A DNA stretch of 64,000 nt. Source: Bolinopsis microptera. Its lineage: Eukaryota; Ctenophora; Tentaculata; Lobata; Bolinopsidae. Of the stretch, positions 1,718 through 61,684 are shown one piece after another. The stretch's first letter is position 1, and each line of letters starts with the position of its first letter. The notes beneath the pieces were generated by a model. It had not been told where the DNA came from and searched no databases. It worked only from the letters and a program-made list of their open reading frames with translations. The position numbers were made by a program, and so were the translations under genes. The stretch lies in NCBI RefSeq assembly GCF_026151205.1, contig NC_087083.1, forward strand, positions 14,196,944 through 14,260,943. The letters run 5' to 3'.

Positions 1718-4231
1718 CATTGTTGTTAAGTGCAGTTAGACCTCTTGTTCTTCGTACTGCGTTGATAGCAATGTATAAAAGCAATGTGTATACACCTGAA
1801 AATGGAGATTAACAGATCTGTAAATCAGAAATTGTTGACGCGAGTCATAAAAATGCACCAGTACGACAAGTAACATAACTACTGCAGATAGTTGATATAT
1901 AGCTGACCTATAATGGTGCCCATAGGAACCACAATAAACACAAGAGCGTACACCATAACAGGGAGCATGTTGTCACTTATCATGGAGGCTAGACACACTG
2001 CTCTATCAGCATCGTAGTGCATCGGGGATATTCCTGGGAGGGAAACAAGTTAATAATAGGACAGTAGTGCATCGGGGATATTCCTGGGAGGGAAACAAGT
2101 TAATAATAGGACAGGTTTATGTGCATCGGGGAGATCCCTGGGAGAGAAACAAGTTAATAATAGTTGTGCATCGGGGATATCCCTGGGTGGGAAACAAGTT
2201 AATAGTAGTAGTGCATCGGGGATATTCCTGGGGGGGAAACAAGTTAATAATAGGACAGGTTTATATTATATATATATATAATATATCATCATGATATTTT
2301 ATCATGATATTTTATATATTTGATATATCATCATATTTGATATATCATCATGATATTTTATAAAAATGCGGTAAGGTTTTACATGTAAATAAATCCATTG
2401 ATATCGAAGTATATTTATGTATTATATCATTTGTATATTCATAAATAGGGGTGATCTAAACAAATGTTGGTCACCTAAGTAGCAGGTAAGTTGAGGAACA
2501 GTTGCCACTGTCCAGACACAGATTGATATCAGCCGGGCTGTTCTTCTCGTTATCTTTTTCCTGGGATTGTAATCGTGTTTTACCAGTGTTAAACTGTAAT
2601 CTACTAACCTTGTATAACTTTCTTACAACTATATTCCTTTTATTTCCCATTGAAATTCAAGACACAAAATAGAAATAGAATAGAAACAAAAACAAGGTAT
2701 ATTTGATAACGATTAACTGTTCTACTAACGAGAAGGGGTATTTGATAACGATTAACTGTTCTACTAACGAGAAGGGGTATTTGATAACGATTAACTGTTC
2801 TACTAACGAGAAGGGGTATTTGATAACGATTAACTGTTCTACTAACGAGAAGGGGTATTTGATAACGATTAACTGTTCTACTAACGAGAAGGGGTATTTG
2901 ATAAGGATTAACTGTTCTACTAACGAGAAGGGGTATTTGATAACGATTAACTGTTCTACTAACGAGAAGGGGTATTTGATAACGATTAACTGTTCTACTA
3001 ACGAGAAGGGGTATTTGATAAAGATTAACTGTTCTACTAACGAGAAGGGGTATTTGATAACGATTAACTGTTCTACTAACGAGAAGGGGTATTTGATAAC
3101 GATTAACTGTTCTACTAACGAGAAGGGGTATTTGATAACGATTAACTGTTCTACTAACGAGAAGGGGTATTTGATAACGATTAACTGTTCTACTAACGAG
3201 AAGGGGTATTTGATAACGATTAACTGTTCTACTAACGAGAAGGGGTATTTGATAACGATTAACTGTTCTACTAACGAGAAGGTATATTTGATAACGATTA
3301 ACTGTTCTACTAACGAGAAGGGGTATTTGATAACGATTAACTGTTCTACTAACGAGAAGGGGTATTTGATAACAAACGCCCTGTGTACTCCAATCCACAT
3401 CATGAAGAGAATGGAGACAATTCGGAGATAAGACACAGCAAATCCCACTATCCAGCACATGTTGATACCCATCACCCACCTGGGGGCAGCGGAGTGTTAG
3501 AAATGAGGAGGTGAGATTTAAATTAATAAATTCTGTTTTCCTAACTATATTTATTCAGGACGTTACAGAAGGAATTAATTTAATGTAGTCTGAGGAGTCC
3601 TCACTATCCTCACGCCCAAAAATGGAGTTTCTCTTGTCGCTAATATGATGATAAACTTGAGATATGTAGGAAAATTAAGTTATATTATTGATAAAGTAAA
3701 TTAGTCACGTGTTGAAAGCAGCTGAAATAGCGGTAGAAGGAAAGGTGATGAGGCAGAGGAGGAAGTCAGAGAGGGAGAGGTTAGTGAGGAAGCACATCAT
3801 GGCCCTCTCCAGCCCGCTCCACCGTCGTATTTTAATTATAGAAACCAGCACCAGGGCATTTCCTGAGGATAAGACAGCGTCATGTACACGTGCATACACA
3901 ATTAGACTGAACTTATAGAAACATTATACTGATATAATACTAGATGCAAATTATTTGTTAACTGCGACAATAAGAGCAAAGAGCAGAGAACCATTACTGA
4001 ATTTAATGATATAACATAATATATAATAAATACATTCGGTCAATAAGTTCATGGTCCTATGAATTTAGAACAAGTTTGTTTCTGCTTACCAAAAATGCCC
4101 ACAATTGTGTAGCACGTAAAAACCAGGGAGAGGACTATTTGTTCTGCTTTAACCCTATTACTAATGTCGTCCAGAGACCTGTTCATGAACTCCCATATAC
4201 TGACAGTCTCGTTGTTCTCCAGTGTTATCAT
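1718..4231 (-). CDS. class A (rhodopsin-like) GPCR, exons 1-6 (N terminus to ICL3)
   Basis: Six exons join in phase on the minus strand: 4231..4090, 3862..3709, 3479..3354, 2560..2475, 2033..1908 and 1795..1718. They encode a short N terminus (MITLENNETVSIWEF, with an N-glycosylation site) and TM1 with the GN motif (GIFG/NALVLVSIIK, split by intron 1). TM2 has LSLSDFLL, and ECL1 has a Trp before the TM3 cysteine (WVMGINMCWIV). TM3 ends in GVHRAFVIKYPFS where family members have DRYxxIxxPFS. TM4 is RLISICVWTVATVPQL, ECL2 carries its Cys (DADRAVCLAS), and TM5 and the start of ICL3 follow (IAINAVRRTRG). The acidic residue of DRY is absent. No TM6-TM7 exon could be found in 1..1717, so the gene is either continued beyond the window or truncated. 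The ligand is unknown. Introns 3 and 4 carry tandem arrays of their own splice sites. An AG precedes the first coding exon, so a 5' UTR exon probably exists. Confidence 0.8.
2016..2270 (-). repeat. minisatellite made of the GPCR exon 5 splice acceptor (5 copies)
   Basis: There are five copies of a 45-53 bp unit. On the minus strand each contains a pyrimidine tract, CCCAG and the first ~17 bases of exon 5 (GAATATCCCCGATGCAC). The copy that runs into the coding sequence is the one at 2016-2065. The other four lie upstream in intron 4 and carry intact AG acceptors. Confidence 0.85.
2700..3375 (-). repeat. 39-bp minisatellite made of the GPCR exon 3 splice donor (~17 copies)
   Basis: About 17 nearly identical 39-bp units. 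Read on the minus strand, each is 20 bases of exon 3 end (TATCAAATACCCCTTCTC) followed by the donor GTTAGT and 13 more intron bases. The coding exon ends in the first unit (donor at 3353/3352). Because 39 is 13 codons and no unit contains a stop in this frame, the whole array is open and would encode repeated VIKYPFSLVEQLI. Divergence is only one or two substitutions per unit, so expansion is recent or homogenised. Confidence 0.95.
3545..3665. repeat. dispersed repeat in GPCR intron 2
   Basis: About 110 bp around the motifs TTACAGAAG, AATTAATTT, TAGTCTGAGGAGTCCT and GGAGTTTCTCTT recur with point differences at 37985-38085, upstream of the small gene at 38.2 kb. The match identifies a dispersed element, but I saw no terminal inverted repeat. 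Confidence 0.6.
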
Positions 4232-5233: not shown

Positions 5234-5273
5234 TAAGGAAGCTACAATAATTGAGAATAGGATGATTCATTTG

Positions 5274-5780: not shown

Positions 5781-5799
5781 AAAATATCATCTCTTTTTG

Positions 5800-6810
5800 A
5801 TTATAATGTCAGGGTACTTTATAAAGTCGAATTATAAACTGATATCTTCATTAATAAGGAGGAAGTTTCAACGATTTCGAAATCTATCCTTTAAAAACAT
5901 TTCCTTGTGTTTAGGGAAGCATATCGGTCGATCACTGACTGAATATGCCACTTAATACTCATTCAAGTTGGCATTAAATTCATATATAATGACATTAAAC
6001 TGTCGTGGCAAAGCAGAATTTGTTGGAAATCACGAATGAGCAAAATTCTCACCTTTCGCACGTGCAAACTTGGAGCAGACGTTGCGTGCGCATCCAATAT
6101 TGAATCGCCGTAAATTTTTGCATGTAATTGTTTTATATATAGCTTGATAAGCATGCAAAGTTTCAAAGTATTTTAAGAAGAACTGTAATCACAACGGCAC
6201 TCTAAAGTTGACAGAAAATGACGAAAACAGCAATTTTCAGTGATTTTAGCGATTTTCTATCAATTTGGGCGTGTCCCAACGTGTGCAACTTTTCGATTTT
6301 CAACTTTAAAACTAGCCTATAACACAATTTATACCTATAGGAAGCAGAACTGAGCTCCACAACCCAAGGCATGGCCCAACACCAGAGAATACTAAATCGC
6401 AAAATTGACGTTTTTATAAAATAATTCTTCAAAAAAGCACAAACTTCAATGACGAATATCTTTATGAAGGAGCAAGCTAGAAAAACTTTCCGGTAGATTT
6501 TCAGAATGCTTGAACAATTATCTAAGGTAAAAATTTCCTCAGATTTTGAATAAAATTACTTCTTAATGGTTTAAAATTAATTTTAAAAGTTATTACTTTG
6601 TCAAAAATCAAGTTTTAAAAACGGTTAACTTGATGACGTCATCAAGGGGTGTTTATGACGTCATATAATTTTTTTATACAATGTAAACTAAAGTATAAAC
6701 AATTATTTGCAAGACCTGTGGTCGGAAATGGCTGTATCTTTTATACTTTTGAATCTATGGACAATTAAATACAGGCTACAATTGACTGGCAAAGCGTCTA
6801 TCCCTGAATA
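5800..6810. other. AT-rich intergenic stretch
   Basis: No coding signal was seen. 6025-6105 resembles 23337-23420 (part of the dispersed element described for the foldback). Near 6775-6805 there is a motif, GGCTACAATTGACTGGCAAAGCGTCTATC, that recurs at 28683-28715 next to the other copy of the 550-bp family. Confidence 0.5.
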
Positions 6811-6814
6811 TATG

Positions 6815-12108: not shown

Positions 12109-15100
12109 ATGAATGGGCTGATCCTTCATTACCTTCTTCCCTGGTTTCTATTGGAGCAGGTAACTAGTGAAGCTAGTGGTGATGAATTCAGAAAAGAACT
12201 AGGAGAACGGAAGCTTAAGTATGACGAGACACTTAATCATTACGTCATCCAAATAGAGAAAAATCAGGTTTGTATTATGAATGTATTGGTATCTGAATGA
12301 TGTTTAATACTGGTTAGTGCCGGTTTCTTAACAAGAGGAAACTTTTTATATGTAAACATCAGAGGTTAGCATAGAGGCTATTTTACATTTTAATTAAATA
12401 CTGTTCTCAAATGCTAAATGATAAAATCAATATTTATAAATTATAAGTTAGTATCGTGTTATAAAAACCGGCTTCATTACTATGAGAAAGAAACAAAATA
12501 AACGGGCCTATATATAGGAGCACTCCTCGTCTTGTAGGTTTATAACCTACCAAAGTACCAAGACGCGCGCCGAGTTGAAACAAATATTTTACCAGTATCA
12601 CCCGTTAATCCTCGTCACATAATTAACATGACTGCGTGACTTATATAATAATATGTATAGAGGGAGGTATAAACCATAGTTCGGTGTACAATTATTTCTT
12701 TATTCTCCACCGCTCCTCGGAATCTTTGACGTTTCAAAGATGCCGAGGATTCAAAAGTAATTAGGAAAACGGATAGAGCATGAAAAAGTCCTTAACATGT
12801 TTTGATAAAATGAGTTAGCTGATATTCATATTGATATTTTGTTCAGCAGGTTGGGTAACGTCAACACTAGGTCCAAATAACAATTTCATGCCTTATGCTA
12901 AGATGAGAAGTACTTTCCGGCGACATAAGTTTAGGTGCCCGTAGCGCCATTTCAAGTGTTCCAGTCATTATTTTGTCACGAAAGTCGGACTTCCATCGGA
13001 AACCCATTTATCGTACTTTATAACCAGTTTTATTAGTACGTACGGTACAGTCATTTTTAAAAGTACTGAGTTCGTACCGTACGAACTTCTCATCATATGC
13101 CTTATATAACGTTTAACAAGAGCTCCCCCCCCCCCCCCCCCCCCCCCCCTTAACAAGAGCTCCTTGTTCAGACAGCTATTCTTGAGTGCACGTCCCCAGA
13201 GTCAGCTACCACGCTGACTAAAGAGGAGAACAGATCAGAGCCCTGCATACCTGAGAGGGATGTCATATACGAGAGGGACGTCGGGGACATCACCATCTCT
13301 TGTCTAAGTCAGTAACATAATTACAATAATTAACATAATTAACATAATTAATTAACATAATTAACTGTTTATGTATTTAGAGAGAGGTGCACAATAAACT
13401 ACCTTTTCCGACCTTATCTGACCGGAAGTTGCGTGAACGGACATAATTTTAAGCAGACATTAAAATTAACGCTAGGGCCACCGTACCAGTGTCCAATTAA
13501 TGTCCGTTCAAATAAAGTTCGATAAGGTATTTTTCATTTTTTGATGCGCTTTTTGGGCAAGAAATGTTTTTTACATCGAGGAAACCCTATAAAAAACTAA
13601 AATCCATTTTAATTATCATTTTTAGTTTGTCAATCATCGGTCTTGATAAATGGGAGACACTAATCCTACTCGATTTCGATTATTTTATAGACTAATTAAA
13701 CATTTTCTTCGACAACAAAGGAGTCAAGCACAATAAACAGTGTTTGTAAGATTGTTGAATATAAGTTAGTTAGTTCAAGAAATAATGTAACATTTCACGC
13801 AACCACAATTCCACATGGAAATTGATCTTCTTAAGGGGCCGCTAATTAACGTTCTCATAACTAACTACTTTACACCAGTAATAATTATTAGCTATTAAGG
13901 TAAAACCTAAGGTATTAGGTTGAGTCAATTGGTGTTTTTATAAAATCAATAATATTATATGATAAATACCAATTCCAGTAAAAGAAGTGTAAGTGTAAAA
14001 ACTATAGTTGCAATATTCAGCCCATTCTAAACCCCCTTCCCCCCCCCCCCCCCGGGGCGCCCCCTAATTATTCGTATTTCCATGAGACACGCTACTGAAT
14101 ACCCAACAATAAAGATTGTAGTCGTGGCTAAAGCTACCATCAATATTAGCATTTAACGCTATGTGTAATATAACAAAGGATAAACTTCCTTTATACAATA
14201 TACGAGTGACGATGGCGAACACAATATCAGCTCTATTTGAAGTTCTACTTGAGATCAACAAGCCTCATAGTAAATTAAGTTCGGATTTTCGGAGAAGTTT
14301 TATCTCGCATTTGCCTCAGCCGTTATTTTAAATGATAAAATTGTGAAACAACCGCAATATTCAAAATTCTCATTTCAGTGGAAGCTCACTACAGTCATAC
14401 TGTACAATGGTTCAGCTGTTACTTGAAGGCCTTTCCTAACTCTAAGACTGTTATCATTATAGCTGTTGTCCCTGCAATAGAAGGTAAGTTTAAATCATTT
14501 TAACATGTTAACATGTTTATTGTTTAAGGGGGCGCATTCTCGTACACAAATGTTAACTACCAACCTTGCTGATAAATGTTGCTGCATGATAACGCTTGGC
14601 TTAGGATCCAACCTTGCAGTTTTTTTTTCAAACGTTTCTGCCTGGATGAGGCGAAACTGAAACCAAAATATTTATCTGCTCAAGTTTTAAAAACAAAAAA
14701 ATTTGCCAAATCAGGTCTTTAAAATCAGGTTTCTGTTATCCGGCATGCCATCCTCTGAGCAGAACGGTTTGCAGTCTGCAGTCTTAACTGCTACTAGAAT
14801 ACCTCTCATGCTTAATCAAATTGTCAGCCTTCTAACACATTTAAGCAAAAGTAACCATGAATATTACTAGTTCCTGTAAAACTGAACTCTGACAGATAAC
14901 TCAAAAGAAGTGAGGCCGATATTTGGCAGTAACTTAACCCTCATGTCGGATGAAGACCTCTCTTGGTGGTGCCTCTCAGAACACACTCCCATTTATAAAC
15001 CCTCCGCGGGCCATCTTCTCTATTTCAAGGTTTGCCTATTTATAAACCCTCCGCGGGCCATTTTCTCTATTTCAAAGTTTGCTTATTTATAAACCCTCCG

Positions 15101-18100
15101 CGGGCCATCTTCTCTATTTCAAGGTTTCCTTATTTATAAACCCTCCGCGGGCCATCTTCTCTATTTCAAGGTTTGCTTATTTATAAACCCTCCGCGGGCC
15201 ATCTTCTCTATTTCAAGGTTTGCTTATTTATAAACCCTCCGCGGGCCATCTTCTCTATTTCAAGTTTTGCTTATTTATAAACCCTCCGCGGGCCATCTTC
15301 TCTATTTCAAGGTTTGCTTATTTATAAACCCTCCGCGGGCCATCTTCTCTATTTCAAGGTTTGCTTATTTATAAACCATCCGCGGACCATCTTCTCTATT
15401 TCAAGGTTTGCTTATTTATAAACCCTCCGCGGGCCATCTTCTCTATTTTAAGGTTTGCTTATTTATAAACCCTCCGCGGACCATCTTCTCTATTTCAAGG
15501 TTTGCTTATTTATAAACCCTCCGCGGGCCATCTTCTTTATCTCAAGGTTTGCTTATTTATAAACCCTCCGCAGGACATCTTCTCTATTTCAAGGTTTGCT
15601 TATTTATAAACCCTCCGCGGGCCATCTTCTCTATTTCAAGGTTTGCTTATTTATAAACCCTCCGCGGGCCATCTTCTCTATTTCAAGGTTTGCTTATTTA
15701 TAAACCCTCCGCGGGCCATCTTCTCTATTTCAAGGTTTGCTTATTTATAAACCCTCCGCAGTTCATCTTCTCTATTTCAAGTTTTGCTTATTTATAAACC
15801 CTCCGCGGGCCATCTTCTCTATTTCAAGGTTTGCTTATTTATAAACCCTCCGCGGGCCATCTTCTCTATTTCAAGGTTTGCTTATTTATAAACCCTCCGC
15901 GGGCCATCTTCTCTATTTCAAGGTTTGCTTATTTATAATACCTTCCGGGAATTATATCCACTAAAAGTCTCGGACACTGAGAGCTGATAATTTGCCGATA
16001 TATCCCGCGAGGGAAGCCAAGGTATTATCAGTATAGACCTCAGACTGGCTGGCGGCAAGTTGTAAAACAAATAACACTGGCGTTCTATATATTAGACACT
16101 ATATTGTATCATGCGCACGTATCGGATTACACCCCTTCCAATTCGGAACCGGAAAATATTATAATACATAATACCTCCGGTTCTTCGGGCCGCAAATTCC
16201 CTCCAGCAAGCTGTCGGGAATTATCAAGGTTTGCTTATTTATAAACCCTCCGCCGGCCATCTTCTCTATTTCAAGGTTTGCTTATTTATAAACCCTCCGC
16301 GGGCCATCTTCTCTATTTGAAGGTTTGCTCATTTATAAACCCTCCGCGGGCCATCTTCTCTATTTCAAGGTTTGCTTATTTATAAACCCTCCGCGGGCCA
16401 TCTTCTCTATTTCAAGGTTTGCTTATTTATAAACCCTCCGCAGTTCATCTTCTCTATTTCAAGTTTTGCTTATTTATAAACCCTCCGCGGGCCATCTTCT
16501 CTATTTCAAGGTTTGCTTATTTATAAACCCTCCGCGGGCCATCTTCTCTATTTCAAGGTTTGCTCATTTATAAACCCTCCGCGGGCCATCTTCTCTATTT
16601 CAAGGTTTGCTTATTTATAAACCCTCCGCGGGCCATCTTCTCTATTTTAAGGTTTGCTTATTTATAAACCCTCCGCGGGCCATCTTCTCTAATTCAAGGT
16701 TTGCTTATTTATAAACCCTCCGCGGGACATCTTCTCTATTTCAAGGTAATTGCTTATTTATAAACCCTCCGCGGGCCATCTTCTCTATTTCAAGGTTTGC
16801 TTATTTATAAACCCTCCGCGGGAGTTCTTCTCTATTTTAAGGTTTGCTTATTTAATATTTATAAACCCTCCTCGGGCCATCTTCTCTATTTCAAGGTTTG
16901 CTTATTTATAAACCCTCTGCGGGACATCTTCACTATTTCAAGGTTTGCTTATTTATAAACCCTCCGCAGGCCATCTTCTCTATTTCAAGGTTTGCTTATT
17001 TATAAACCCTCCGCGGGCCATCTTCTCTATTTCAAGGTTTGCTTATTTATAAACCCTCCGCAGGCCATCTTCTCTATTTCAAGGTTTGCTTATTTATAAA
17101 CCCTCCGCGGGCCATCTTCTCTATTTCAAGGTTTGCTTATTTATAAACCCTCCGCGGGCCATCTTCTCTATTTCAAGGTTTGCTTATTTATAAACCCTCC
17201 GCGGGCCATCTTCTCTATTTCAAGGTTTGCTTATTTATAAACCCTCCGCAGGACATCTTCTCTATTTCAAGGTTTGCTTACTTATAAACCCTCCTCGGGC
17301 CATCTTCTCTATTTCAAGGTTTGCTTATTTATAAACCCTCCTCGGGCCATCGTCTCTATTTCAAGGTTTGCTTATTTATAAACCCTCCTCGGGCCATCTT
17401 CTCTATTTCAAGGTTTGCTTATTTATAAACCCTCCGCAGGCCATCTTCTCTATTTCAAGGTTTGCTTATTTATAAACCCTCCGCGGGCCATCTTCTCTAT
17501 TTCAAAGTTTGCTTTTTTATAAACCCTCCGCGGGCCATCTTCTCTATTTCAAGGTTTGCTTATTTATAAACCCTCCGCGGGCCATCTTCTCTATTTCAAG
17601 GTTTGCTTATTTATAAACCCTCCGCGGGCCATCTTCTCTATTTCAAGGTTTGCTTATTTATAAACCCTCCGCGGGCCATCTTCTCTATTTCAAAGTTTGC
17701 TTATTTATAAACCCTCCGCGGGCCATCTTCTCTATTTCAAGGTTTGCTTATTTTCTGATATTTTCTCAATCATTTTTGATCTAAGTTTTTATGCTAATAT
17801 TTTAGATGCTATAATTTCCTGGCTGAAACGCAAATCAGTGGCCCTGTAGATTTGGTGCTACTTTTCTATTGAACCCTGAATTTAATTGGCTTCCCTAGAC
17901 CAAGATGGAAGTTAACTACTCGTGATATTAAATAGTTCATAGCCAACTAGGTACTTAGGTACAGAACCTTTAATACTCTCCAATAGTATTAGTAGAGTTA
18001 CTGATTGAGGCGTATTATTTTCAGTGGTTCCACACAGAGAGCGAGCGTCGTGGTAACCATAACTCAAGGCCGATGACAAAAGTTAAAAAGCTTGAGTTGT

Positions 18101-32650: not shown

Positions 32651-32689
32651 TTTAGAAATTTTTTTCCCTGCTCTTGCCGAAGGCAAAAA

Positions 32690-40125: not shown

Positions 40126-43100
40126 ATGTCTGAGGATTTACCATACTCAGCTGAGTATGCAAAGTCTAATAGGTCCGCCTGTAAAACATGCGGAAGTCAC
40201 ATTCCTAAAGATCATATCCGTGTTGCAAGACTGGTGCAATCTCCTCACTTCGATGGAAAGATGGCTCTCTGGAATCATTTCAATTGCTTTTTCAGGTATT
40301 GCACTTGTATAAAATGAATCCATACAGTTGCAGTATACACAAAAATAATTCTCAAATGGTGTGCCATTTATCTGCGGCTTAAAATTGCAATGTCTACTGT
40401 ATGCTGAGAGGGGATATTGTAAACTGTATGCTGAGAGGAAGGGGATATATAATATATTTTGATCACCTAAATAATATGCAGTGATGGAGTGATTTATTTT
40501 TATTTCACTCAGAAATTATATAGTAGCCATCTAAAATTATAACATTCGTTTTGCATCACGCTGTAAATTTATCTAAACATCAAACTAAGGGTGGACTCTG
40601 TTGTTTGCTCTTATATCTTAATGTTTATCCCGTGTTACAGGAAGAACAGTGTCAAGTCGACTGGCGACATTAAGGGCTTTGGAACACTGCGTTATGAGGA
40701 CCAAGCAAAAATAAAGGAGAAAATCGGAGGTGGTGGCGTTGCTAGCACTGGAAAAGGTGACTTCAGTTCATTTTGTTGAACCGTTTATTTTTTACTGAAT
40801 CAATCTTTAAATTAACATGTGTTATTATAAAAACATTGTTTTGCCGATTTTACTTTTTTCCAACTAGTGTGCAAAAGGATGGAGTGAAATATTCAGCAGT
40901 TTTAGTTTTTTTGAACGAAAATATCATATTATTATGTTGAACATACGAAGAAAAATAAAGTCTTTCAAGGTGTGACTGTGTTTATTTATGGACAAGATAT
41001 TGCTTGATAGTGCTTGAAATTCAACTATAAATGTCTTGGTAGCAATCGGCCAAAAGTCACACTTATTAGCTAATAAATTCTCGCTGTTTGAATTGTTCCT
41101 GCTTGTTGGAAAAATTTAAGTCAAAAGAGATATTGAAAATAAGTATCAAATATAAGTGCTGAAAATCAGTTGATATATAATCACATATTAAAATGTGTTA
41201 CTGAGTAAATATAAATTAACATATGTTATTATACATCTAAGTTAAGAAATGTTTGCACTTAAGCCTCGCTTTATTTACATTATATTCCAGGAAAGGAGGT
41301 TTCAGTGGATGTTGCAGCAGAGTACGCTAAATCAAACAGATCCACATGTAACGGGTGTTTCGTCTCTATCGATAAAGACACTGTTAGAATAGGTAAAGAT
41401 ACTGTTAGAATAGGTAAAGATACTGTTAGAATAGGTATAGATACTGTTAGAATAGGTAAAGATACTGTTAGAATAGGTAAAGATACTGTTAGAATAGGTA
41501 AAGATACTGTTAGAATAGGTAAAGATACTGTTAGAATAGGTAAAGATACTGTTAGAATAGGTAAAGATACTGTTAGAATAGGTAAAAAACTGTTAGAATA
41601 GGTAAAGATACTTTTAGAATAAGTAAAGATACTGTTAGAATAGGTAAAGATACTGTTAGAATAAGTAAAGATACTGTTAGAATAGGTAAAGATACTGTTA
41701 GAATAGGTAAAGATACTTTTAGAATAGGTAAAGATACTGTTAGAATAGGTAAAGATACTGTTAGAATAGGTAAAGATACTGTTAGAATAGGTAAAGATAA
41801 TGTTAGAATAGGTAAAGATACTGTTAGAATAGGTAAAGATACTGTTAGATTAGGTAAAGATACTGTTAGAATAGGTAAAGAAACTGTTAGAATAAGTAAA
41901 GATACTGTTAGAATAGGTAAAGATACTGTTAGAATAGGCAAATATACTGTTAGAATAGGTAAAGATACTGTTAGAATAAGTAAAGATACTGTTAGAATAG
42001 GTAAAGATACTGTTAGAATAGGTAAAGATACTGTTAGAATGGTAAATATACTGTTAGATTAGGTAAAGATACTGTTAGAATAGGTAAAGATACTGTTAGA
42101 ATAGGTAAAGATACTGTTAGAATAGGTAAAGAAACTGTTAGAATAGGTAAAGAAACTGTTAGAATAGGTAAAGATACTTTTAGAATAGGTAAAGATACTT
42201 TTAAAATAGGTAAAGATACTGTTAGAATAGGTAAAGAAACTGTTAGAATAGGTAAAGATACTTTTAGAATAGGTAAAGATACTTTTAGAATAGGTAAAGA
42301 TACTGTTAGATTAGGTAAAGAAACTGTTAGAATAGGTAAAGATACTTTTAGAATAAATAAATATACTGTTGGAATAGGTAAAGATACTGTTAGATTAGGT
42401 AAAGATACTGTTAGATTAGGTAAAGATACTGTTAGAATAAGTAAAGATACTGTTAGAATAGGTAAAGATACTGTTAGAATAGGTAAAGATACTGTTAGAA
42501 TAGGTAAAGATACTGTTAGAATAAGTAAAGATACTGTTAGATTAGGTAAAGATACTGTTAGAATAAGTAAAGATACTTTTAGAATAGGTTAAGATACTGT
42601 TAGAATAGGTAAAGAAACTGTTAGAATAGGTAAAGATAATGTTAGATTAGGTAAAGATACTGTTGGAATAGGTAAAGATACTGTTAGAATAGGTAAAGAT
42701 ACTGTTAGAATAGGTAAAGATACTGTTAGATTAGGTAAAGATACTGTTAGAATAGGTAAAGATACTGTTAGAATAGGTAAAGATACTGTTAGAATAGGTA
42801 AAGATACTGTTAGAATAGGTAAAGATACTGTTAGTATAGGTAAAGATACTGTTGGAATAGGTAAATATACTGTTAGATTAGGTAAAGATACTGTTAGAAT
42901 AGGTAAAGATACTGTTGGAATAGGTAAAGATACTGTTAGAATAGGTAAAGATACTGTTAGATTAGGTAAAGATACTGTTAGAATAGGTAAAGATACTGTT
43001 AGAATAGGTAAAGATACTGTTAGATTAGGTAAAGATACTGTTAGTATAGGTAAAGATACTGTTGGAATAGGTAAATATACTGTTAGATTAGGTAAAGATA

Positions 43101-45251
43101 CTGTTAGAATAGGTAAAGATACTGTTGGAATAGGTAAAGATACTGTTAGAATAGGTGAAGTGTTGTCTTTATCCTGTTGTAGTTGCAGAGATCTCACAAG
43201 ATATTATATGTTCAGGTTGTTGGGTAGCAGCTGAAGGCAAGGAGTTAAAGTGGGCAGTAGGTGGCAGGAAGCAAGTGTGGCACCATCCTACTTGCTTCTC
43301 TGAGAGGAAGAAACAACTTGACATTGATCACAACATTACTGCTGACATCATTGATGTAAGATAAATAAAATAACTAAAGTTATTTTTAATAATAACTCAT
43401 CTGTTCTCTATTAATACTTACATTATTCGCTAATTCACTGGATTTATTTAGTCTCCTAAGTTTATTACAGTTCGCTGATTTAAATAAATGAATGCTCGCT
43501 ATCAGTTACAAGTTGGTCTTATTGCCACAGTAAAACCCCAATTCATTGCTTCCCTTTCCCCCAAGTGTTTGTAAATATCTACTACTTTAGACGAGTTGAT
43601 ATCACGTGATCTTTCACAGTACGACTTACAAACGGTGTAAAGAAAGCTAGGCTCCTTAGTTAGCGCATCTATTCCTTATGCCATTAATTGAGTGCTTTTC
43701 AACAGTTACCATGCATTATTGTTTCAAATATAGGTTCTGTGTTATCCGGTTTCAACTAAAAATTAAAACCCCGGTTTACTGACAATTTTCCTTTTCCCAA
43801 ATTGTGAGGTAGATCAGGATTTTAATGTACATACGATTAACAATTATTGTTTTTTTTTATTTGAAAATTCAATTAATCATTATATATATATAAATCAAGC
43901 GTTACATTTCAGCCTTGCAAAGTTACAATGACATATTTCTGATATACTAACATGATAAATGGTACTGCAATATAAGTTGCTTAATGTTTGGCCGGATGAC
44001 AAACTAACGAGAAAATAAACTTGATCTATATAATAATTAATTCGGCTGAACCAACACATAGCAAGAGCCACATTAACGTTGGGGCCGTCTAGGACAAAGA
44101 TTTCGTATGCAAAACTATTAAAAGTGAACGTATGATTGCAGGGGTATGAACTATTAAAGAAGGAAGACCAGGCACAATTAGTTCTCCTCCTAGGTAATTA
44201 TTATTTTACTAATCTACTCGGCTCGACGTGTTTTCCTAAAATAATTATGTTTGGGCTAACGCTAACTCAAGTATTATATCTATTTGATAAAAATAAATCA
44301 CCGAGTGTCAAGATAAACGATATCTCCCTATTGACATGATCTACTACTTTAACTTATTTCAATATGTACAATAATGCAGGTAAAGGAGGGAAGAAAAAGG
44401 AGAGGAGCAGGAAAAGTGACAATAATGAGAATATACCTCCTCCTCAATCTGCTTTAGAAAAGAAACTGCAGGTGAGTCGATCTAAACAGTTTCTCTACAA
44501 CTCTCCTTGTTTATCAACCCAACAGAAAGCATTTTTACTATAAAATATAAATGCTAATTCATAGAATCAAAAGAAGATTGCTATTCGAAAAGCCCACCTG
44601 CCCTTGCTATCCTTGACTGTCACGTGCTAATACTTTAAACAGAATGAATTATGTAAAGATGTAAGTGCAAACTAAACTTGTTTTGTAATACAATAACCTA
44701 ACTCAGGCCCAGAGTGGCTATCTCATGGAAATCAGACAAGCACTAAAAGAAGTAAACAACAAGTATTTGAGAGAGATGTTGGAATATAACGGATACCCAA
44801 CTCACGGAGCCGATATCAGGGTACATACATTGAAACCCCGATTTAGCGCAAGCCCCCATTTACCGCGGCCATTTTCTTCCCCCAAATACGACTTAACAGT
44901 TAACACTTAACATACATAATGTAAACAACCAAAACTTCGATTTACCGCAAACACCCGATATACTGCGGCTCTTCTCTTTCTCACAAACACCGCGGTAAAT
45001 CGGGGTTTTACCGTACATACCAGATGTCACATAATATAATATTAGAATATTCAAGTTAAATATTATTCAAATGTTAATGTAAATCATGATTTGATGCCCC
45101 GTACTTTTCCAGTCAATTATCTTTGTTGCTATTATAAGACCTGTACTATTAATTAAAATCCCCACAGCTAATAGATAGATGTAGTGAGGTATAGCATTTG
45201 GTAGGTTTGACGAACCTGCTCCTGTATGCGATGGAACTTATTTCTCACTTG
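40126..45251 (+). CDS. PARP1: poly(ADP-ribose) polymerase 1, N-terminal half (8 exons seen)
   Basis: The exons are 40126..40295, 40641..40756, 41291..41392, 43216..43355, 44142..44193, 44380..44471, 44707..44820 and 45168..45251. ZnF1 is complete, with ligands C19, C22, H51 and C54 (CKTCGSHIPKDHIRV...NHFNC) and the DNA-contacting GFGTLRYEDQ. ZnF2 has the signature AEYAKSNRSTCNGC and ends VWHHPTCF. A basic linker (KGGKKKERSRK) and the PADR1/ZnF3 start follow (YLMEIRQALKEVNNKYLREM, YPTHGADIR/LIDRCSE). PARP1 senses DNA breaks in the nucleus through these fingers and makes poly(ADP-ribose). Exon 8 reads correctly (FGRFDEPAPVCDGTYFSL) only if one G is added in the GG at 45188-45189, so it is frameshifted as given. 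BRCT, WGR and catalytic domains are not seen, because the sequence beyond 45.3 kb is unreliable. Intron 3 is a splice-donor array. Confidence 0.9.
41372..43156 (+). repeat. 21-bp minisatellite made of the PARP1 exon 3 splice donor (~84 copies)
   Basis: The unit GATACTGTTAGAATAGGTAAA is 16 bases of exon 3 end (GAYACTGTTAGAATAG) plus the donor GTAAA. The first, slightly different unit is the real exon end (GACACTGTTAGAATAG, donor at 41393). The rest fill intron 3 almost to the acceptor at 43215. Variants include AAGTAAAG, GATTAGG and GAAACTG. The 21-bp length equals seven codons, so each extra unit would add KDTVRIG in frame. The first ~9 units are open before a base-loss variant at 41581-41590 breaks the frame. 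Confidence 0.95.
43850..44082. repeat. dispersed repeat in PARP1 intron 4
   Basis: This is the second copy of the repeat inside the 36.2-36.9 kb element (shared TTCGGCTGAACCAACACATA and TTTGGCCGGATGACAA blocks). Here it lies without the GC-rich inverted ends, which shows that the core moves or was copied independently. Confidence 0.7.
44828..45013. mobile_element. 186-bp MITE with TA duplication, 7 bp after the PARP1 exon 7 donor
   Basis: The left terminus (..TGAAACCCCGATTTAGCGC) and the reverse complement of the right terminus (CGGTAAAACCCCGATTTACC) match over about 20 bp, with TA on both sides (44826-44827, 45014-45015). ACCCCGATTTACCGC repeats occur inside. TA duplication and these ends suggest the Tc1/mariner-pogo group. 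Removing the element leaves an ordinary donor context, AGG/GTACATACCAG, so it landed just inside intron 7. Confidence 0.8.
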
Positions 45252-45339
45252 GTATGTTGAGATTAGAATTACTAAAATTATTTGGTGCTCTTGTAGCCGC
45301 TGTTTAATATTCGTCATTTAATTTAAAATTTGTTTTTCG

Positions 45340-48871: not shown

Positions 48872-48904
<33 letters not shown>

Positions 48905-50110
48905 TTTTGGGGGTTTTTGGAAAAAAATTCCCCATTTTGTTCCAAAATTTATTTAGATCACCCGGGAAATTTTGTGAAAATTTAAAAATGGGCCGGGAAA
49001 GGGAGGCCCTAGTTCTGTAAACCCGTCCCTAATGGGGCGGTGGAAAAAAAATAGTCAGGTGGCCTTTTTTGCTTTAAAAAATCGTTAATTAAGGGAGATT
49101 ATTTTTAAAAATATACACTGATAAAGTGTTGGGATTCTTTTGAAAAAATGTGGGGGGGGATTTTTGAAAATAATACTTCATCCGGCCGGCCCGGGTAATC
49201 CCGCCCAAATTTGTGTGGGATAGGTTGTACAGTAGAAATTTGGTTATTTGTTTTTATAGTATTCCCTTTTTGTGTGCAAGTGTGAATTTTTTTCGTTTAT
49301 TTGGGGATGGGATTTGTTTAGGGCCCTGTTTGGGATAGGGGGATAGATAAGGGAAAATTAAAAGATTAAGGAAATTTTGTGGGTTTATCAAATTTCCCCA
49401 TTCTGTCGAATATCCCTTAGCTTTCAGTTTGCTTTTTTAAACAGTACAAAAAGATGTTGCAGTATGAAAAGTTCTTTCACAAATTTAAAAAGGAAGACCT
49501 GGGCTGCTTTTTCGGGATTTCCCGTGCGCATTTTATTCGGAGTGGTACAAATCATGAATTAAAATTTCTTAATTGAAAGAGAATTGAAAAAGAAATAAAA
49601 AGTACAATATTGGGGGTAAGAATTCAGCGTGGGGAGGGGGCTATCAACTTTTACATTCTGTTTGGAAACATCTTTTGTAATTTTCCCGCATTACAAGAGC
49701 GCAAGGATGATTCCCGCAGTACTGCAGAGTTTCATCACAACTATACCGGAAGAATTGGGTTTTTTCTGTTTTCCCCCTGCAAATTCATCTGTGGAGTGGT
49801 TTTTTAAACGAATTTGATTAAAATCTCTTTTGAAAGGAAAATTTATAGAAATAAAAAAGAAAGAATTTTGGGGATAAGATTTATCGTGGGGGTTTTTCAA
49901 CTTACCCAATTTTGTCGAATTTTAAATTTGCTACAGTTTCCGCATTTAAAACGTTAAAAAAGATGCCCCGCAGTATGACAGGTTTCTCAAAATATAACCC
50001 GGAAAAATGTTTTTTTCTTTTTGTATGTTCCCCTTTGGATTCTTTGGGGTTTGGGAAAAAATTTAATATGATATCTTTATTGAAAGAGCATTGATAAGAA
50101 ATAAATAAGA
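45340..50110. other. low-quality consensus: homopolymer-inflated, error-rich sequence
   Basis: From about 45.34 kb the texture changes abruptly. There are very frequent runs of 4-10 identical bases (GGGG, CCCC, TTTTTT), almost no long clean words, and a ~34-base C run near 48872-48904. Copies of the neighbouring repeat unit at 49377-49560, 49620-49800 and 49880-50080 are recognisable but corrupted (for example TTACCACATTCTG read as TTTCCCCATTCTG). No gene can be supported in 45.34-49.3 kb, and short open frames here should not be trusted. Real PARP1 exons 9 onward may be hidden in it. Confidence 0.75.
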
Positions 50111-50156
50111 TAAGAATATTGGAGATAACAATCTCATCTTGGGTTTATCAACTTAC

Positions 50157-53100
50157 CACATTCTGTCGAATCATCATTAGCTACAGTTCCAGCATTACAA
50201 GCAGTACAAGAAGATGCTCCTGCAATACTGACAGAGTTCTCATCACAACTATCACAGGAAGAAATGTGTGCGTCTCTGTATGTTTCCCGTGCACATTCAT
50301 CTGTGGAGGTGTTACAAATCATGAATAAGACAATATCTTTATTGAAAGAGAATTGATAAGAAACCTAAATAAGAACAAATATTGGAGACAAGAATCTCAT
50401 CGTGGGTTTATCAACTTACCACATTCTGTCGAAATCATCATTAGCTACAGTTCCAGCATCACAAGCAGTGCAAGCAAGATGTCCCTGCAGTACTGACAGA
50501 GTTCTCATCACAACTAACACAGGAAGACATGTCTGCTTCTTGTATGTTCCGCCGCACCAATCATCTGCGGAGTGGTACAAATCATGAATATGATATCTTT
50601 ATTTGAAAGAGAATTGATAAGAAATAAATAAGATAAGAATATTGGAGATAAGAACTCATCGTGGGTTTATCAACTTACCAACTTGCAATCATCTGTGGAG
50701 TGTACAAATCATGAATAAGATATCTTTATTGAATGAGAATTGATAAGAAATAAATAAGATAGAATATTACAGATAAGAAATCGTATCATGAGTTTATCCA
50801 CTTAGCAACATTTGGTCATTTGTCTTATATTCCAATTTTTGTGCAAGTGTGACATTTTTCTCGTTTATTGGAGACCTGGGATTTGTTATAGGCGTGATGG
50901 TGATAGAGATAGATAAGAATATTACAGATAAGAATCTCATCGTGGGTTTATCAACTTACCACATTCTGTCGAATCATCATTAGCTACAGTTCCAGCATTA
51001 CAAGCAGTACAAGAAGATGCTCCTGCAGTACTGACAGAGTTCTCATCACAATTACACAGGAAGACATGTCTGCTTCTCTGTATGTTCCCGCTGCGCATTC
51101 ATCTGCGGAGTGGTACAAATCATGAATAAGATATCTTAATTGAATGAGAATTGATAAGAAATAAATAAGATACAAATATTGGGGATAAGAATCTCAGCGT
51201 GGGTACTGGGTCTATCAACTTACCACATTCTGTCAAATCATCATTGGCTACAGTTCCAGCATTACAAGCAGTGCAAGAAGATGCTCCTGCAGTACTGACA
51301 GAGTTCTCATCACAACTATCACAGGAAGACATGTCTGCTTCTCTGTATGTTCCCGCTGAGCATTCATCTGCGGAGTGGTACAAATTATGAATAAGATAAT
51401 ATCTCTTTTGAAAGAGAATTGATAAGAAATAAATAAGATAAGAATATTGGAGATAAGAATCTCATCGTGGGTTTATCAACTTACCACATTCTGTCGAATC
51501 ATCATTAGCTACAGTTCCAGCATTACAAGCAGTACAAGAAGATGCTCCTGCAATACTGACAGAGTTCTCATCACAACTATCACAGGAAGACATGTGTGCG
51601 TCTCTGTATGTTCCCGCTGCACATTCATCTGTGGAGTGATACAAATCATGAATAAGACAATATCTTTATTGAAAGAGAATTGATAAGAAATAAATAAGAT
51701 ACAAATATTGGAGACAAGAATCTCATCGTGGGTTTATCAACTTACCACATTCTGTCGAATCATCATTAGCTACAGTTCCAGCATCACAAGCAGTGCAAGA
51801 AGATGCTCCTGCAGTACTGACAGAGTTCTCATCACAACTAACACAGGAAGACATGTCTGCTTCTCTGTATGTTCCCGCCGCACAATCATCTGCGGAGTGG
51901 TACAAATCATGAATATGATATCTTTATTGAAAGAGAATTGATAAGAAATAAATAAGATAAGAATATTGGAGATAAGAATCTCATCGTGGGTTTATCAACT
52001 TACCAACTTGCAATCATCTGTGGAGTGGTACAAATCATGAATAAGATATCTTTATTGAATGAGAATTGATAAGAAATAAATAAGATAAGAATATTACAGA
52101 TAAGAATCGTATCATGAGTTTATCCACTTAGCAACATTTGGTCATTTGTCTTATATTCCCAATTTTTGTGCAAGTGTGACATTTTTCTCGTTTATTGGAG
52201 ACTGGGATTTGTATAGGCCGTGATGGTGATAGAGATAGATAAGAATATTACAGATAAGAATCTCATCGTGGGTTTATCAACTTACCACATTCTGTCGAAT
52301 CATCATTAGCTACAGTTCCAGCATTACAAGCAGTACAAGAAGATGCTCCTGCAGTACTGACAGAGTTCTCATCACAATTAACACAGGAAGACATGTCTGC
52401 TTCTCTGTATGTTCCCGCTGCACAATCATCTGCGGAGTGGTACAAATCATGAATAAGATATCTTAATTGAATGAGAATTGATAAGAAATAAATAAGATAC
52501 AAATATTGGGGATAAGAATCTCAGCGTGGGTACTGGGTCTATCAACTTACCACATTCTGTCAAATCATCATTAGCTACAGTTCCAGCATTACAAGCAGTG
52601 CAAGAAGATGCTCCTGCAGTACTGACAGAGTTCTCATCACAACTATCACAGGAGGACATGTCTGCTTCTCTGTATGTTCCCGCTGCACATTCATCTGTGG
52701 AGTGGTATTAATCATGAATAAGTTAATATCTCTTTTGAAAGAGAATTGATAAGAAATAAATAAGATAAGAATATTGGAGATAAGAATCTCATCGTGGGTT
52801 TATCAACTTACCACATTCTGTCGAATCATCATTAGCTACAGTTCCAGCATTACAAGCAGTACAAGAAGATGCTCCTGCAGTACTGACAGAGTTCTCATCA
52901 CAACTATCACAGGAAAACATGTCTGCTTCTCTGTATGTTCCCGGTGAACATTTTTCTGAAGATGTTATATTTTATTCATAATGTAAACAATCGCTGCTAG
53001 CATAACAGATGATCATTCTGCATCTATGTAAAATATGTTTAATGGATTGATATAGCCTGACATTAGAGTACATTAGAGTACATTAGAGTACATTAGAGTA

Positions 53101-53333
53101 CATTGGAGTACATTAGAGTACATTAGAGTACATTAGAGTTCATTAGAGTACATTTGAGTACATTTGAGTACATTAGAGAGTTCACTTACGACACTTAGTA
53201 TTATACGTATTAGCCACATATCCACTAGAACATATAGTACAAGAAGAAGCTCCAGCAGCACTGATGGTGTTTCCTTCACAGCCTTTACAACTACTCATGT
53301 ACGCACTCCTGTACTTGCCTGCTGGACACTTTT
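50157..53333 (-). CDS. ephrin-receptor-like (GCC2/GCC3-type) repeat protein, tandem 144-bp exons
   Basis: At least ten minus-strand exons of 144 bp (E and G are off by one base), all phase 1-1, each encode one 48-residue module. The pattern is ECxxGTYREADMSSCxSC then ENSVSTAGASSCTACNAGT. In transcript order: 53333..53190 (divergent, EKCPAGKYRS), 52955..52812, 52694..52551, 52429..52286, 51889..51746, 51628..51485, 51367..51224, 51102..50960 (one base short), 50564..50420 (indels), 50300..50157. Corrupted copies continue to about 49380. Acceptors (CCGCAG) and donors (GTAAGT) are conserved. Because every exon is phase-symmetric, unit number can change without breaking the frame. Six-cysteine modules of this family occur in extracellular parts of receptors and adhesion proteins. 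The N- and C-terminal parts were not identified. Confidence 0.8.
50402..52990. repeat. ~1.32-kb higher-order duplication of the exon array
   Basis: The block 50402-51680 recurs at 51720-52990 in the same order. Each block has a normal exon, then a truncated exon (50682 / 51998, only ACTTGCAATCATCTGTGGAG left), a spacer with TTAGCAACATTTGGTCATTT and GTTTATTGGAGAC, and then three exons. A third, corrupted copy of the spacer is visible at about 49220-49340, so the array grew by block duplication as well as by single exons. Confidence 0.85.
53062..53180. repeat. 10-bp repeat ATTAGAGTAC in the intron after the first ephrin-like exon
   Basis: About 12 copies of ATTAGAGTAC starting 10 bp after the donor GTAAGT (53189) of exon 53333..53190, reading on the minus strand. 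The donor itself is not part of the unit. Confidence 0.85.
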
Positions 53334-58280: not shown

Positions 58281-58289
58281 TAAGAGCAA

Positions 58290-58714: not shown

Positions 58715-61684
58715 CTACAGCGCGTCCTCCAAAGCATGAATGTGCCCATGTCCATGATGAACATGGACATGCTCGTGACCATGACCGTGACCATGACCAT
58801 GACCATGACCGTGACCGTGACCATGTTCATGTTCTGGGTGAAGGCCGTGGTCGTGGTGGCCAGGATGGAAGCCAGTAGACTGGGTCGATGGTACTGAGTG
58901 TGTTAGGGACTGTCCCATCATTCTGAACTTTGCCATCCAGAACTTTACACAATCTTCCTTTAGTACCACGTAGAAGAGGAAGATAAAAACACCCTGAAAT
59001 ATCATGTATTATATAATATAATGTAATATAATGTAATATAATGTAATATACTGTAATATAATGTAATATTATGTATTATATATAATGTAATTTTATGTAT
59101 TATATAAGAGATGGTACACTGGTTAATGTTTACTATAATATTGAAGTAATACATTAAAAGTAGATACTTGTAGGACATACCAACATATCCAAAAATTTAA
59201 ACAATGTACCGTAAATAACAATACCTGTGGGGCATTTAGTGCAATAAAGAGCCATCTGAAGACCGCATTGATGGTACTATAGTTGGAGTTGTTCATCAGA
59301 AGAAAGAAACCAACAATCCAACTCAGACCCAGAATAATTGTCACCGCTAGTGCTGATTTCACCTGCTTCTGTGAACCAAAATAACTGTGATTAGACTTTG
59401 AATTATTAGCAGTGCAAGTTGTTAACGAACAGATTCTCAAATATCAGGATCTATCCCGTAGCCACTAACCGTTCTCATTTTGATTTCAGCTTCGTCCGTT
59501 TTCTCAGCTTGGGTCTTGATAGCAGTCATAATAACTTTGACTATGAAGACAAATAAGACCCAACTAATGACCACCCCTAGTACCACTGGACCGTAGAACG
59601 TTGCAATACCGTAGGGGTATTTGATAAAGCACCTGACACAATATACTCTTGTTAACTCAACTATTAAATAATATAGGAGTATTAAATGATATAATATAAT
59701 GTTCTTAATTCTGAATATCTGCTGCACTGTACACTTGCCCGATAAACATTGCGAATTGTCACGAAATTGAAAAGTTTGTATTAACTATATCAGGTAAAAT
59801 TTATCCTTAAGTCCATTATTTACGTCTTAGGATCTGCAAAGTCAGATCGGAAATGAAATTCAAAAATATTTCTCCGCACGGAGAAATATTTTTGATATGA
59901 CCCAAAACTCCGTGAAAGCAGTTTTAACCTAGGCGCTCGCGTGGGGAATTTCAGTCGTTCACCACGTGCGTGCGCAAATCTGCGTGTGCAAATATCAACC
60001 GTGGGAACGTACATTGTAAACAAAACTGCCTTCGCGGAGTTTTGCCTTTCAAAACTCTTTTCGCGGAGTTTTGTGTCAAATCTGGTCGCAAAACTGAGCC
60101 GTGGAACTGGGCTGTTAGTCCATTATTTACGTCTTAGGATCTGCAAAGTCAGCTCCGCCCCAAGCCACCCCGATCAGAGGGAAGATAAGTGGGAGACCCC
60201 ATCCTACCAAACTGTACTTCAGCATTGCGTGGCTCATGTAGACCCCTAGTACTTTAACCATGGCTAAGTACATAGTAACTGCTTCCACCACCATCCAGCT
60301 TAGCTGGCAGAGCCAGAAGTAGTTCAACAGGAACGCTATCTACACAATTAGTTGTTATTAGTACTCATTTTGCTAAATGTTAGGTTATATACCTATACTT
60401 TTGACAGGGTAAAAATGTGTTACAAATGTTTTTGACATTTTTTTACTAATTGGCGTTTCAAAACATCGTTAACTCGGACGTTTGCAGTGTAAAAATCAAT
60501 ACCATACGGAAGTGTGGTGTTAATATGCGCTTACAATGGAACAAGGAATGGAAGGTTTTGCATCCTCTTCAGCAGCTACAAAACTATCCATTAAAAAGAA
60601 GAACACAATAGAGAGCATTAGAGCGAGAACCAGCATCAGGTTGATTTTCTGAGACTTCATTTTCATCAATTTCCTGTAAATGTGATATTTAGTTCGTTAT
60701 GCCTGTTCCACTGCACTACTGTACTACTATATCTATACTACTACATACTACTACTACTATATATATAGCCAGGATAGCAATTCTATTGTATTTATCATGG
60801 GATGTTGACTTGCTACATCGTATTATATGCATGATACAATCTCTATGATCTGTAATGATAATGATGAAGTTGTTATGTGCAAGATTACTTGTTTGGAAGA
60901 ATAGCAGCTGCAGTAAGTGCAAGATTACTTGTTTGGAAGAATAGCAGCTGCAGTAAGTGCAAGATTACTTGTTTGGAAGAATAGCAGCTGCAGTAAGTGT
61001 TAAACAGAAGAGACTAGAAGCCAACAGAACTAGTGACACAAGCTCCTCCTTGTCATTACTCTCGCTGGTGAACGACTGAAATGTAAATAATAACATATTA
61101 AAGTCACTATTGTGACGGTACATATAGGGTGTTTCATAAATAATGTCCTGTTTTTGATTTATTGTCTAATTTAGTACTGTAAATGAATTAACGTTTCAAG
61201 TAAACGGCAACCTAGTAAAGGTTTCAAGTATGGCCAGTTGTCTGCAACTTTATCTTTAGTTGGTTCGGTGCTAAAAGCTAGACACGAGATACTTGCTCAG
61301 ATTTCAAGTTGAAATGTGAGTTGGAAAATCAATTACTATCTCGATAAATAATTTTGAATTTGCGAAGAATTGGCAGAATTAAGTTGAAGAACAAATATAA
61401 TTGTTGGGATTAAAAATATATATATTTATATATAAAACTAAAATAAATTAGTAAAATTAAGTAACCATGAGAACTGCAAAGCTAGTGAGATGATCACAAA
61501 TACATTTCACTTCGGTAACTCCTGTCTCTGCGTTGTACACTGATCGGGTCTCGCAGCCCTTCTCGCTCCAGCCTCGCTCACCTGAAGGAGAGGTCTTAAT
61601 TAGGAACCGGCCGGATATCCGGTCGGTTCCTAGTCTCAATACACAAGTGTCAAGATGAAACTCCTCCTTGATTCCACTGTCCTT
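58715..61684 (-). CDS. adhesion GPCR, GPS and 7TM half (7 exons), His-rich tail
   Basis: The minus-strand exons 61684..61466, 61075..60969, 60673..60535, 60339..60131, 59632..59470, 59368..59225 and 58993..58715 all join in phase. The GPS ends VKCICDHLTSFAVLM, with the expected cleavage between L and T, preceded by GWSEKGC. TM1 is LVSLVLLASSLFCLTL, TM2 INLMLVLALMLSIVFFFLMD and TM3 NYFWLCQLSWMVVEAVTMYL. TM4 is WGLPLIFPLIGVAWGG, ECL2 starts with Cys (KTCFIKYPYG), and TM5 is VVLGVVISWVLFVFIVKVIM. TM6 is TIILGLSWIVGFFLL, and TM7 (INAVFRWLFIALNAPQ/GVFIFLFYVVL) is split by the last intron. The cytoplasmic tail is dominated by Gly-His and His-Glu repeats and ends HALEDAL. An AATAAA overlaps the TAG stop. 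The N-terminal GAIN and adhesion domains lie beyond 64 kb. The ligand is unknown. Confidence 0.9.
58730..58870 (-). repeat. (CATGGT/CACGGT)n repeat encoding the His-rich tail
   Basis: An imperfect 6-bp repeat (ACCATG/ACCGTG on the plus strand) encodes about 30 His residues alternating with Gly, Glu and Val. The same repeat leaves an open frame on the plus strand as a by-product. Confidence 0.85.
59815..60152 (-). repeat. duplicated exon 4 end and splice donor of the adhesion GPCR (2 copies, ~305 bp apart)
   Basis: A ~36-bp segment with the last 22 exon bases (TGACTTTGCAGATCCTAAGAC), the donor GTAAAT and 7 more intron bases is present at the true exon end (60117-60152) and again at 59813-59848 in the following intron. 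Between the copies lies a hairpin, AAATATTTCTCCGCACGGAGAAATATTT, and several TTCGCGGAGTTTTG repeats. Confidence 0.85.
60877..60996 (-). repeat. exon 2 end and splice donor of the adhesion GPCR, exact triplication (40 bp x 3)
   Basis: Three identical 40-bp units in a row. Each holds, on the minus strand, the last 28 bases of the TM1 exon (CAGCTGCTATTCTTCCAAACAA) and the donor GTAATC plus six intron bases. The coding exon ends in the first unit on the minus strand (donor at 60968). Confidence 0.95.

Follow-up and report, generated by a model that had tools for sequence, protein, structure and literature searches.

Tandem arrays whose repeated unit includes the end of a coding exon and its splice site occur in several genes of one region of chromosome 12 (C12) in the lobate ctenophore Bolinopsis microptera, and we identify them as mirage minisatellites, which are densely packed in this part of the chromosome. 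The most likely mechanism is that tandem duplications arise often and locally and are then filtered where coding sequence begins or ends. The window analyzed is a stretch of 64 kb (C12:14196944-14260943); C12 measures 15,202,596 bp in a genome of 264.65 Mb and 232 contigs, and one of its ends is about 0.94 Mb away. According to PMC10232365, the published assembly of the species comprises 13 chromosome-scale scaffolds, and RNA-seq and Iso-Seq data were used in its annotation. The sample included a further 100 kb on each side (200 kb of flank, 264 kb in total), and exon prediction relied on a small HMM gene finder for which the window's own exons served as the training set. With a period of at least 12 and a score of at least 80, TRF reports 117 arrays in the window and flanks, which make up 30% of the 264 kb.

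Arrays at exon ends in the window

Six repeats of this type had been described in the original prediction, and TRF finds five of them, with 39 bp × 17.3 and period 45 × 5.0 in a rhodopsin-type GPCR, 47 bp (52 copies) in a putative Ig-like gene, 21 bp × 85.2 in PARP1 and 40 bp × 3.1 in an adhesion GPCR (aGPCR); the sixth is a pair of copies in the latter gene. The match of 83–100% in the five TRF arrays excludes chance similarity. The proposal that each unit combines an exon end with its splice site, that the copies are intronic and that units differ between genes is borne out, with further cases in flanking DNA unseen at the time, and in all six window cases it is the intron side of the inferred exon that holds the additional copies. 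Four exon boundaries are well supported by homology, in PARP1, the rhodopsin-type GPCR (donor and acceptor) and the aGPCR, but none in the Ig-like receptor, for which no Pfam family was matched.

In the rhodopsin-type GPCR, encoded on the minus strand, the donor array (2700..3373) has a unit consisting of the last 20 bp of the TM3 exon and 19 intron bases from the donor GT (junction 3354/3353), with the copies in the intron. The exon itself (3354..3479, ending ..GVHRAFVIKYPF|S) is defined by 7tm_1 similarity, its frame and the gene finder. The acceptor array (2014..2258, identified by TRF and from the sequence, with copies varying between 45 and 50 bp) is built on CCCAG followed by the first 20 bp of the exon 1908-2033, its copies being likewise intronic. 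The joined exons match 7tm_1 at E=2e-19 (Pfam), supporting both donor and acceptor. Because the donor array is open in frame, 39 bp corresponding to 13 codons, some of its units may be included in the mRNA. A genome search for close paralogues of this GPCR matched only a dispersed intron repeat; this repeat, of about 130 bp, occupies positions 3517-3658 of the window and occurs in at least 39 other places (best 40 of 404 candidates scored).

The putative Ig-like gene carries its array on the plus strand (14991..17753, interrupted by other sequence at 15948-16223), starting 39 bp within a putative exon that ends at 15029 with the weak GT donor AAG|GTTTGC. Neither this exon alone nor three joined exons matched any Pfam family, the gene finder did not call the exon, and the exon-plus-array region matched the genome at its own locus only, with no close paralogue. 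The support for this case consists of the array, an open frame and the weak GT donor.

The array with the most copies among those at coding edges, 85 of them, is located at the zinc-finger-2 donor of PARP1 (41373..43160, plus strand), a gene identified by zf-PARP (Pfam), a PARP1 match in the PDB and the NCBI protein P0004, annotated as 'poly [ADP-ribose] polymerase 1-like [Bolinopsis microptera]'. The unit comprises the last 20 bp of the exon, which ends at 41392, and the start of the intron, which the array nearly fills. P0004 reads SIDKDTVRIG|CWVAAEG at this position, corresponding to use of the first donor with no further unit. P0004 positions the acceptor near 43215. The sequence at 45300-48900 of the window looks corrupted, with inflated homopolymers; a PARP1 exon in it (about 45.55-45.72 kb) reads as garbled when set against P0004, which ends there. 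The N-terminal half of the gene (40126-45253) and the C-terminal half (94.5-111 kb, window coordinates) are on the same strand about 50 kb apart, and genes on the opposite strand sit between them, which points either to nested genes or to a misassembly near the corrupted stretch.

Copy number in two near-identical aGPCR loci

The adhesion GPCR, identified by 7tm_2 at E=7.2e-31 (Pfam), contains an array with 100% match at its TM1 donor (60877..60999, minus strand), the unit being the last ~30 bp of the TM1 exon plus the donor GTAATC. This donor agrees with P0001, a relative at 58% identity whose 357 aa come from a contig of 1,487 nt and read LPNK|KSMEMK here without an insert. A second, near-identical copy of the gene was found in opposite orientation 0.8 Mb distal (C12:15071073-15074372). 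In that copy, 21 units make up the TM1 array, as compared with 3 in the window, between identical borders; the 395 bp upstream are 99.2% identical, the 773 bp downstream 95.6%, and a single residue distinguishes the two TM1 exons. Array length is thus unstable. The two copies may be paralogues that arose by segmental duplication, or a misplaced allele or haplotype.

At the TM3 donor of the same gene, two copies of the exon end had been proposed. A 36-bp direct repeat is indeed present on the minus strand, one copy (60117..60152, from the sequence and the gene finder) containing the exon end (60131) and donor and the other (59810..59845, from the sequence) lying inside the intron, but the two copies flank a dispersed element of 268 bp (59849..60116). 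This element has at least 39 matches including itself with at least 226 of 268 bases, i.e., at least 38 further matches at 81-94% identity among the best 40 of 53 candidates scored. About 155 bp from the interior of the element are missing in the second aGPCR copy.

Further cases in the flanking sequence

The flanks contain ten more arrays that straddle a splice site with at least 9 exon bases, seven of them in PARP1. The genes to the right of the window were fixed by homology and comprise the rest of PARP1, a TRIP13-like AAA protein, a thioredoxin-PITH protein, a UBE2G2-like enzyme, an RMDN-like protein and an ABC transporter; the thioredoxin-PITH protein is presumably TXNL1-like. Homology located the BRCT, WGR, regulatory and catalytic exons of PARP1 in this flank, where arrays were found at the BRCT acceptor (78 bp × 3.7), the WGR donor (50 bp × 36), the HD acceptor (22 bp × 2.9), the HD donor (54 bp × 82), two catalytic donors (37 bp × 23 and 42 bp × 2.1) and a catalytic acceptor (54 bp × 2.1). 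In total, PARP1 exons are entered by at least 9 bp by eight arrays, or nine counting a 7-bp case at 94575, where the exon is predicted only. The other three flank cases are a UBE2G2-like acceptor (47 bp × 74) and an RMDN-like acceptor (29 bp × 26), both in the right flank, and the donor of geneX (43 bp × 39), a gene predicted by the gene finder that has no Pfam match.

The exon peptide of the UBE2G2-like gene, RFSVPLFHPNVYSC, has 71 tblastn matches inside the array. It occurs likewise in P0123 (99% identical), and P0124 differs by one residue in that peptide. P0123 joins PPKM|RFSVPLFHPNVY directly (PPKM to RFSV), with no array sequence at the join, and since its contig of 908 nt holds a frame of 165 aa its source is probably a transcript. 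Joins free of array sequence are seen at three boundaries, in P0004 (an NCBI record), P0001 (the relative at 58% identity) and P0123 (the probable transcript).

Adding the five window arrays to the ten of the flank gives 15 splice-straddling arrays, whose exons are supported by homology in 13 cases, by the gene finder only in one (geneX) and by neither in one (Ig). Two further arrays cross stop codons, each unit containing the last codons, the stop and some 3'UTR, with the copies in the 3'UTR: one in the UBE2G2-like gene (58 bp × 2.0) and one in a single-exon matrix metalloprotease (59 bp × 3.0; Matrixin E=1.5e-40). Both were noticed singly, so that the count of two does not derive from a survey of all stops. 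The resulting hand-curated list of 17 coding-edge arrays includes 9 donors, 6 acceptors and 2 stop codons, with units of 21-78 bp. It retains geneX though predicted only, and leaves off other cases with predicted-only exons, namely the donors 65901/65902 (22 bp) and -4351 (8 bp) and the acceptors -45852 (60 bp, weak Ig match) and -44381 (6 bp), among others; their inclusion would not reduce the count.

The original prediction took the splice junction as the common factor. Its splice cases do recur in the flank, but stop codons are straddled too, which leads us to consider the edge of coding sequence, rather than splicing as such, as the feature shared by these arrays. The related proposal that growth is tolerated where redundant copies are spliced out fits best among its suggestions and is too narrow, given the 3'UTR copies at the two stops.

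Arrays inside coding sequence behave differently in their unit length: in each of the three noted, the unit (27, 24 and 21 bp) is divisible by three, the first being an in-frame array of 3.8 copies in an open frame at 1180..1282 (plus strand). Moreover, an array at 49538..52952 (minus strand; TRF and gene finder) repeats a unit of about 261 bp that contains a whole 144-nt Cys-rich exon with its intron. Stop-codon edges, coding-internal units in multiples of three and whole-exon repeats together form the pattern that a coding filter would leave. The Cys-rich exon (ECAAGTYREADMSSC..) and its intron are present in many tandem copies at 49538-53333 and again at 71-84 kb (window coordinates), and its matches to TNFR/Ephrin-receptor-like Pfam families are weak and below the cut-off.

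Local origin of the units

Repeats of this kind could in principle be dispersed elements, either mobile or intron-like (introners), or errors of the assembly, and both the apparently corrupted sequence at about 45.3-48.9 kb and the dispersed element between the TM3 copies are in keeping with such an origin. The units are, however, exon-derived and differ from gene to gene. Searched alone, with very common words skipped, the GPCR donor unit gave 8 matches and the UBE2G2 unit 33, all at their own loci, so that dispersed elements were rejected as an explanation of these arrays; in the searches with these two units and with the Ig region, no unit recurred at many loci in the manner of introners and mobile elements. 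The second aGPCR locus, having the same unit at 21 copies, favors biology over artefact, and PacBio long-read libraries were made for the ctenophore and sponge genomes whose assemblies have been published (PMC10232365). This origin is accordingly the least probable of those considered here, with hardly any weight left to it.

Properties of the repeat units

In eight properly anchored arrays, the exon copy differs from the array consensus at 0-2 positions, which indicates that the arrays are young or homogenized. Units are multiples of three in 7 of the 17 coding-edge arrays, as by chance (p=0.33), so that the extra copies do not appear to be selected for coding; together with stops or frameshifts in the PARP1 zinc-finger-2 and aGPCR arrays, this led us to discard the notion that the arrays are coding repeats. 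Selection on the inner splice sites was likewise discarded. In a comparison limited to arrays other than PARP1 (anchored one base off) and the GPCR acceptor (one usable copy), conservation of the splice dinucleotides of inner copies is not clearly above that of other positions: GT is unchanged in 5 of 6 GT-anchored donor arrays, but 71-92% of the other columns there are unchanged too. In the RMDN array, 16% of copies vary at the G of the inner AG.

AG|GT is found at the unit boundary of 10 of the 15 splice-straddling arrays, as against 4.1 expected (p=0.0014, post hoc), the baseline being 129 donors and 126 acceptors predicted in the sample, some of which belong to transposon frames and to junction-array exons. 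With such a boundary, each unit is a GT...AG segment, in line with the proto-splice model (PMC3443670). The bias is a hint that the role of splice-site motifs goes further than a passive filter would require, and the AG|GT arrays may be those that splicing tolerates best.

The same observation bears on whether these are introns in the making, i.e., whether tandem duplication of AGGT-containing coding segments created the introns, each unit being a GT...AG mini-intron. Tandem genomic duplication has been described as a genuine route of intron gain (Rogers model, PMC3443670), and the likeness is that AG|GT duplicated in tandem yields excisable GT...AG units. Without their extra copies, the zinc-finger-2 and WGR introns of PARP1 would measure only 57 and 63 bp, below all 32 array-free introns of the curated set (median 228 bp, minimum 104 bp). 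The UBE2G2 intron, on the other hand, has 112 bp of ordinary sequence ahead of the array and is thus probably older than the array, and several other introns also retain non-array sequence. A difference from the Rogers model is that, at least in UBE2G2, the array lengthens an intron with ordinary sequence of its own. We regard this origin as very unlikely.

A bolder reading would be that ctenophore genes carry 'self-erasing' minisatellites that are hypermutable and start from AG|GT exon edges, and whose GT...AG units could be skipped or removed by the spliceosome, so that arrays would reach kilobases in essential genes like PARP1 with the mRNA unchanged and would constitute a live genome-wide reservoir of new exons and introns. 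We mention it as a speculative and rather improbable extension of the data.

Placement of arrays relative to random seeding

A mutational process might also target splice junctions as such, for instance if AG|GT-type motifs provoked slippage or template switching, or if exon edges were prone to transcription-linked breakage. The AG|GT boundaries in 10 of 15 arrays and the eight arrays (nine with 94575) that enter PARP1 exons would agree with it. The placement of arrays was compared locally with random placement in 51 hand-curated introns, most of them with homology for both exons and some bounded by gene-finder exons only. Each array was collapsed to one unit, and a random seed of the same length had to enter an exon by at least 8 bp to be considered as straddling. 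Arrays with fewer than 8 exon bases were scored as non-straddling (94575 and TRIP13 115607) and one with 4 bp (116066) was omitted. Arrays with one intron end missing lie outside the test, both straddling (PARP1 HD acceptor, HD donor and geneX donor) and non-straddling (e.g., 98659-98847 and 105180-105384).

Over all arrays tested, 12 of 23 cross a junction where 4.9 are expected (p=0.0003), or 11 of 22 against 4.7 (p=0.0009) upon removal of the unsupported Ig gene. The flank gives 7 of 17 against 3.5 (p=0.023) and, counted by junction, 7 of 58 against 1.7 (p=0.002); the flank p ranges over 0.002-0.047 across TRF scores of 50-150 and exon thresholds of 5-10 bp. PARP1 alone (window and flank) accounts for 6 of 8 against 2.5 (p=0.005), whereas the flank without PARP1 yields 2 of 10 against 1.2 (p=0.35). 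PARP1 is not independent of the choice made in the original prediction, its first half being in the window, and the window cases, PARP1 among them, were selected there. The recurrent process amplifying junctions that had been suggested as one option is consequently not established, as the approximately twofold flank excess depends on this one gene.

Two samples of C3 extend the comparison. At C3:5.00-5.05 Mb (50 kb), arrays represent 5.2% of the sequence, and none of the 16 arrays is a clear straddle; two predicted exons touching arrays there, 17492-17573 (5 bp) and 32611-32726 (whose frame consists of repeat), were not scored as such. The 30-kb sample C3:20.30-20.33 Mb, transposon-rich and with few genes, contains 30% arrays. 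The contrast in array content between C12:14.10-14.36 Mb (30%) and C3:5.00-5.05 Mb (5.2%) is perhaps an effect of the chromosome end; C3:20.30-20.33 Mb reaches 30% too.

A real excess at junctions over random seeding is possible. The dependence on PARP1, the straddled stop codons and the C3 sample nevertheless speak against targeting, which we consider unlikely, if clearly less so than intron birth by duplication. Many arrays and short introns would by themselves produce much of the striking picture.

Proposed course of events

The arrays are probably ordinary minisatellites seen through a coding-sequence filter. In the array-rich part of C12, segments of ~20-80 bp would undergo local tandem duplication, and, introns being short, a seed landing in one would often extend into the exon. 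A seed straddling a coding edge could survive because only the outermost copy has to be read: the first donor, the last acceptor or the first stop would preserve the reading frame, and all further copies would fall in the intron or the 3'UTR. In most of the cases described here, the outermost splice site would then be the one used in vivo, selection acting as the filter. The array might subsequently expand, contract and become homogenized by slippage or unequal exchange.

Comparison with known systems

Arrays of this kind are not new, contrary to what had been supposed. In amphioxus, tandem repeats over exon-intron boundaries, termed 'mirages', have been described in Adh3 and in the globins BflGb6 and BflGb9, where both boundaries are affected, splicing is normal and length is unstable (PMC3087553). 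Further lancelet cases are PGBD5 and TnC (PMC3902484), and the Adh3 units measure 10-72 bp (PMC3087553, PMC3902484). The B. microptera arrays resemble them in that units span exon-intron boundaries, in 15 splice-site cases, that both donor (9) and acceptor (6) sides are hit, and that copy number is unstable, which in the ctenophore is known from the two aGPCR copies. They differ in occurring in a distant phylum, the ctenophores, with up to 85 copies, with eight or nine junction arrays in PARP1 and with stop-codon edges affected too. In human duplicated genes, minisatellite units of about 30 bp at exon-intron borders can be retained or spliced out, and these internal tandem repeats are linked with both segmental duplication and introns that are alternative or novel (PMC2812944), whereas the ctenophore cases concern conserved genes, one of which (aGPCR) is present in two near-identical copies.

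Within a literature search of partial coverage, which is no proof of absence, 'mirage' in this sense was encountered only in the lancelet work (PMC3087553 and PMC3902484), and an equally partial search on ctenophore minisatellites and on Mnemiopsis introns with tandem repeats returned nothing on such arrays. Their density in a ctenophore suggests that mirages may occur in any genome that combines frequent minisatellite birth with short introns. In such arrays the making of exon edges, of cryptic splice sites and possibly of new introns can be observed, and they constitute a hazard for gene prediction, since junction arrays put many ghost exon copies beside the real exon.

Other repeats in the window

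At 6800-8420, inspection by eye shows three successive copies of a unit of roughly 550 bp, each copy closing with a 17-bp minisatellite (AAAGGGGGTACAATAGT). A long frame at 25204-28570 resembles, also by eye, a LINE endonuclease/reverse transcriptase.
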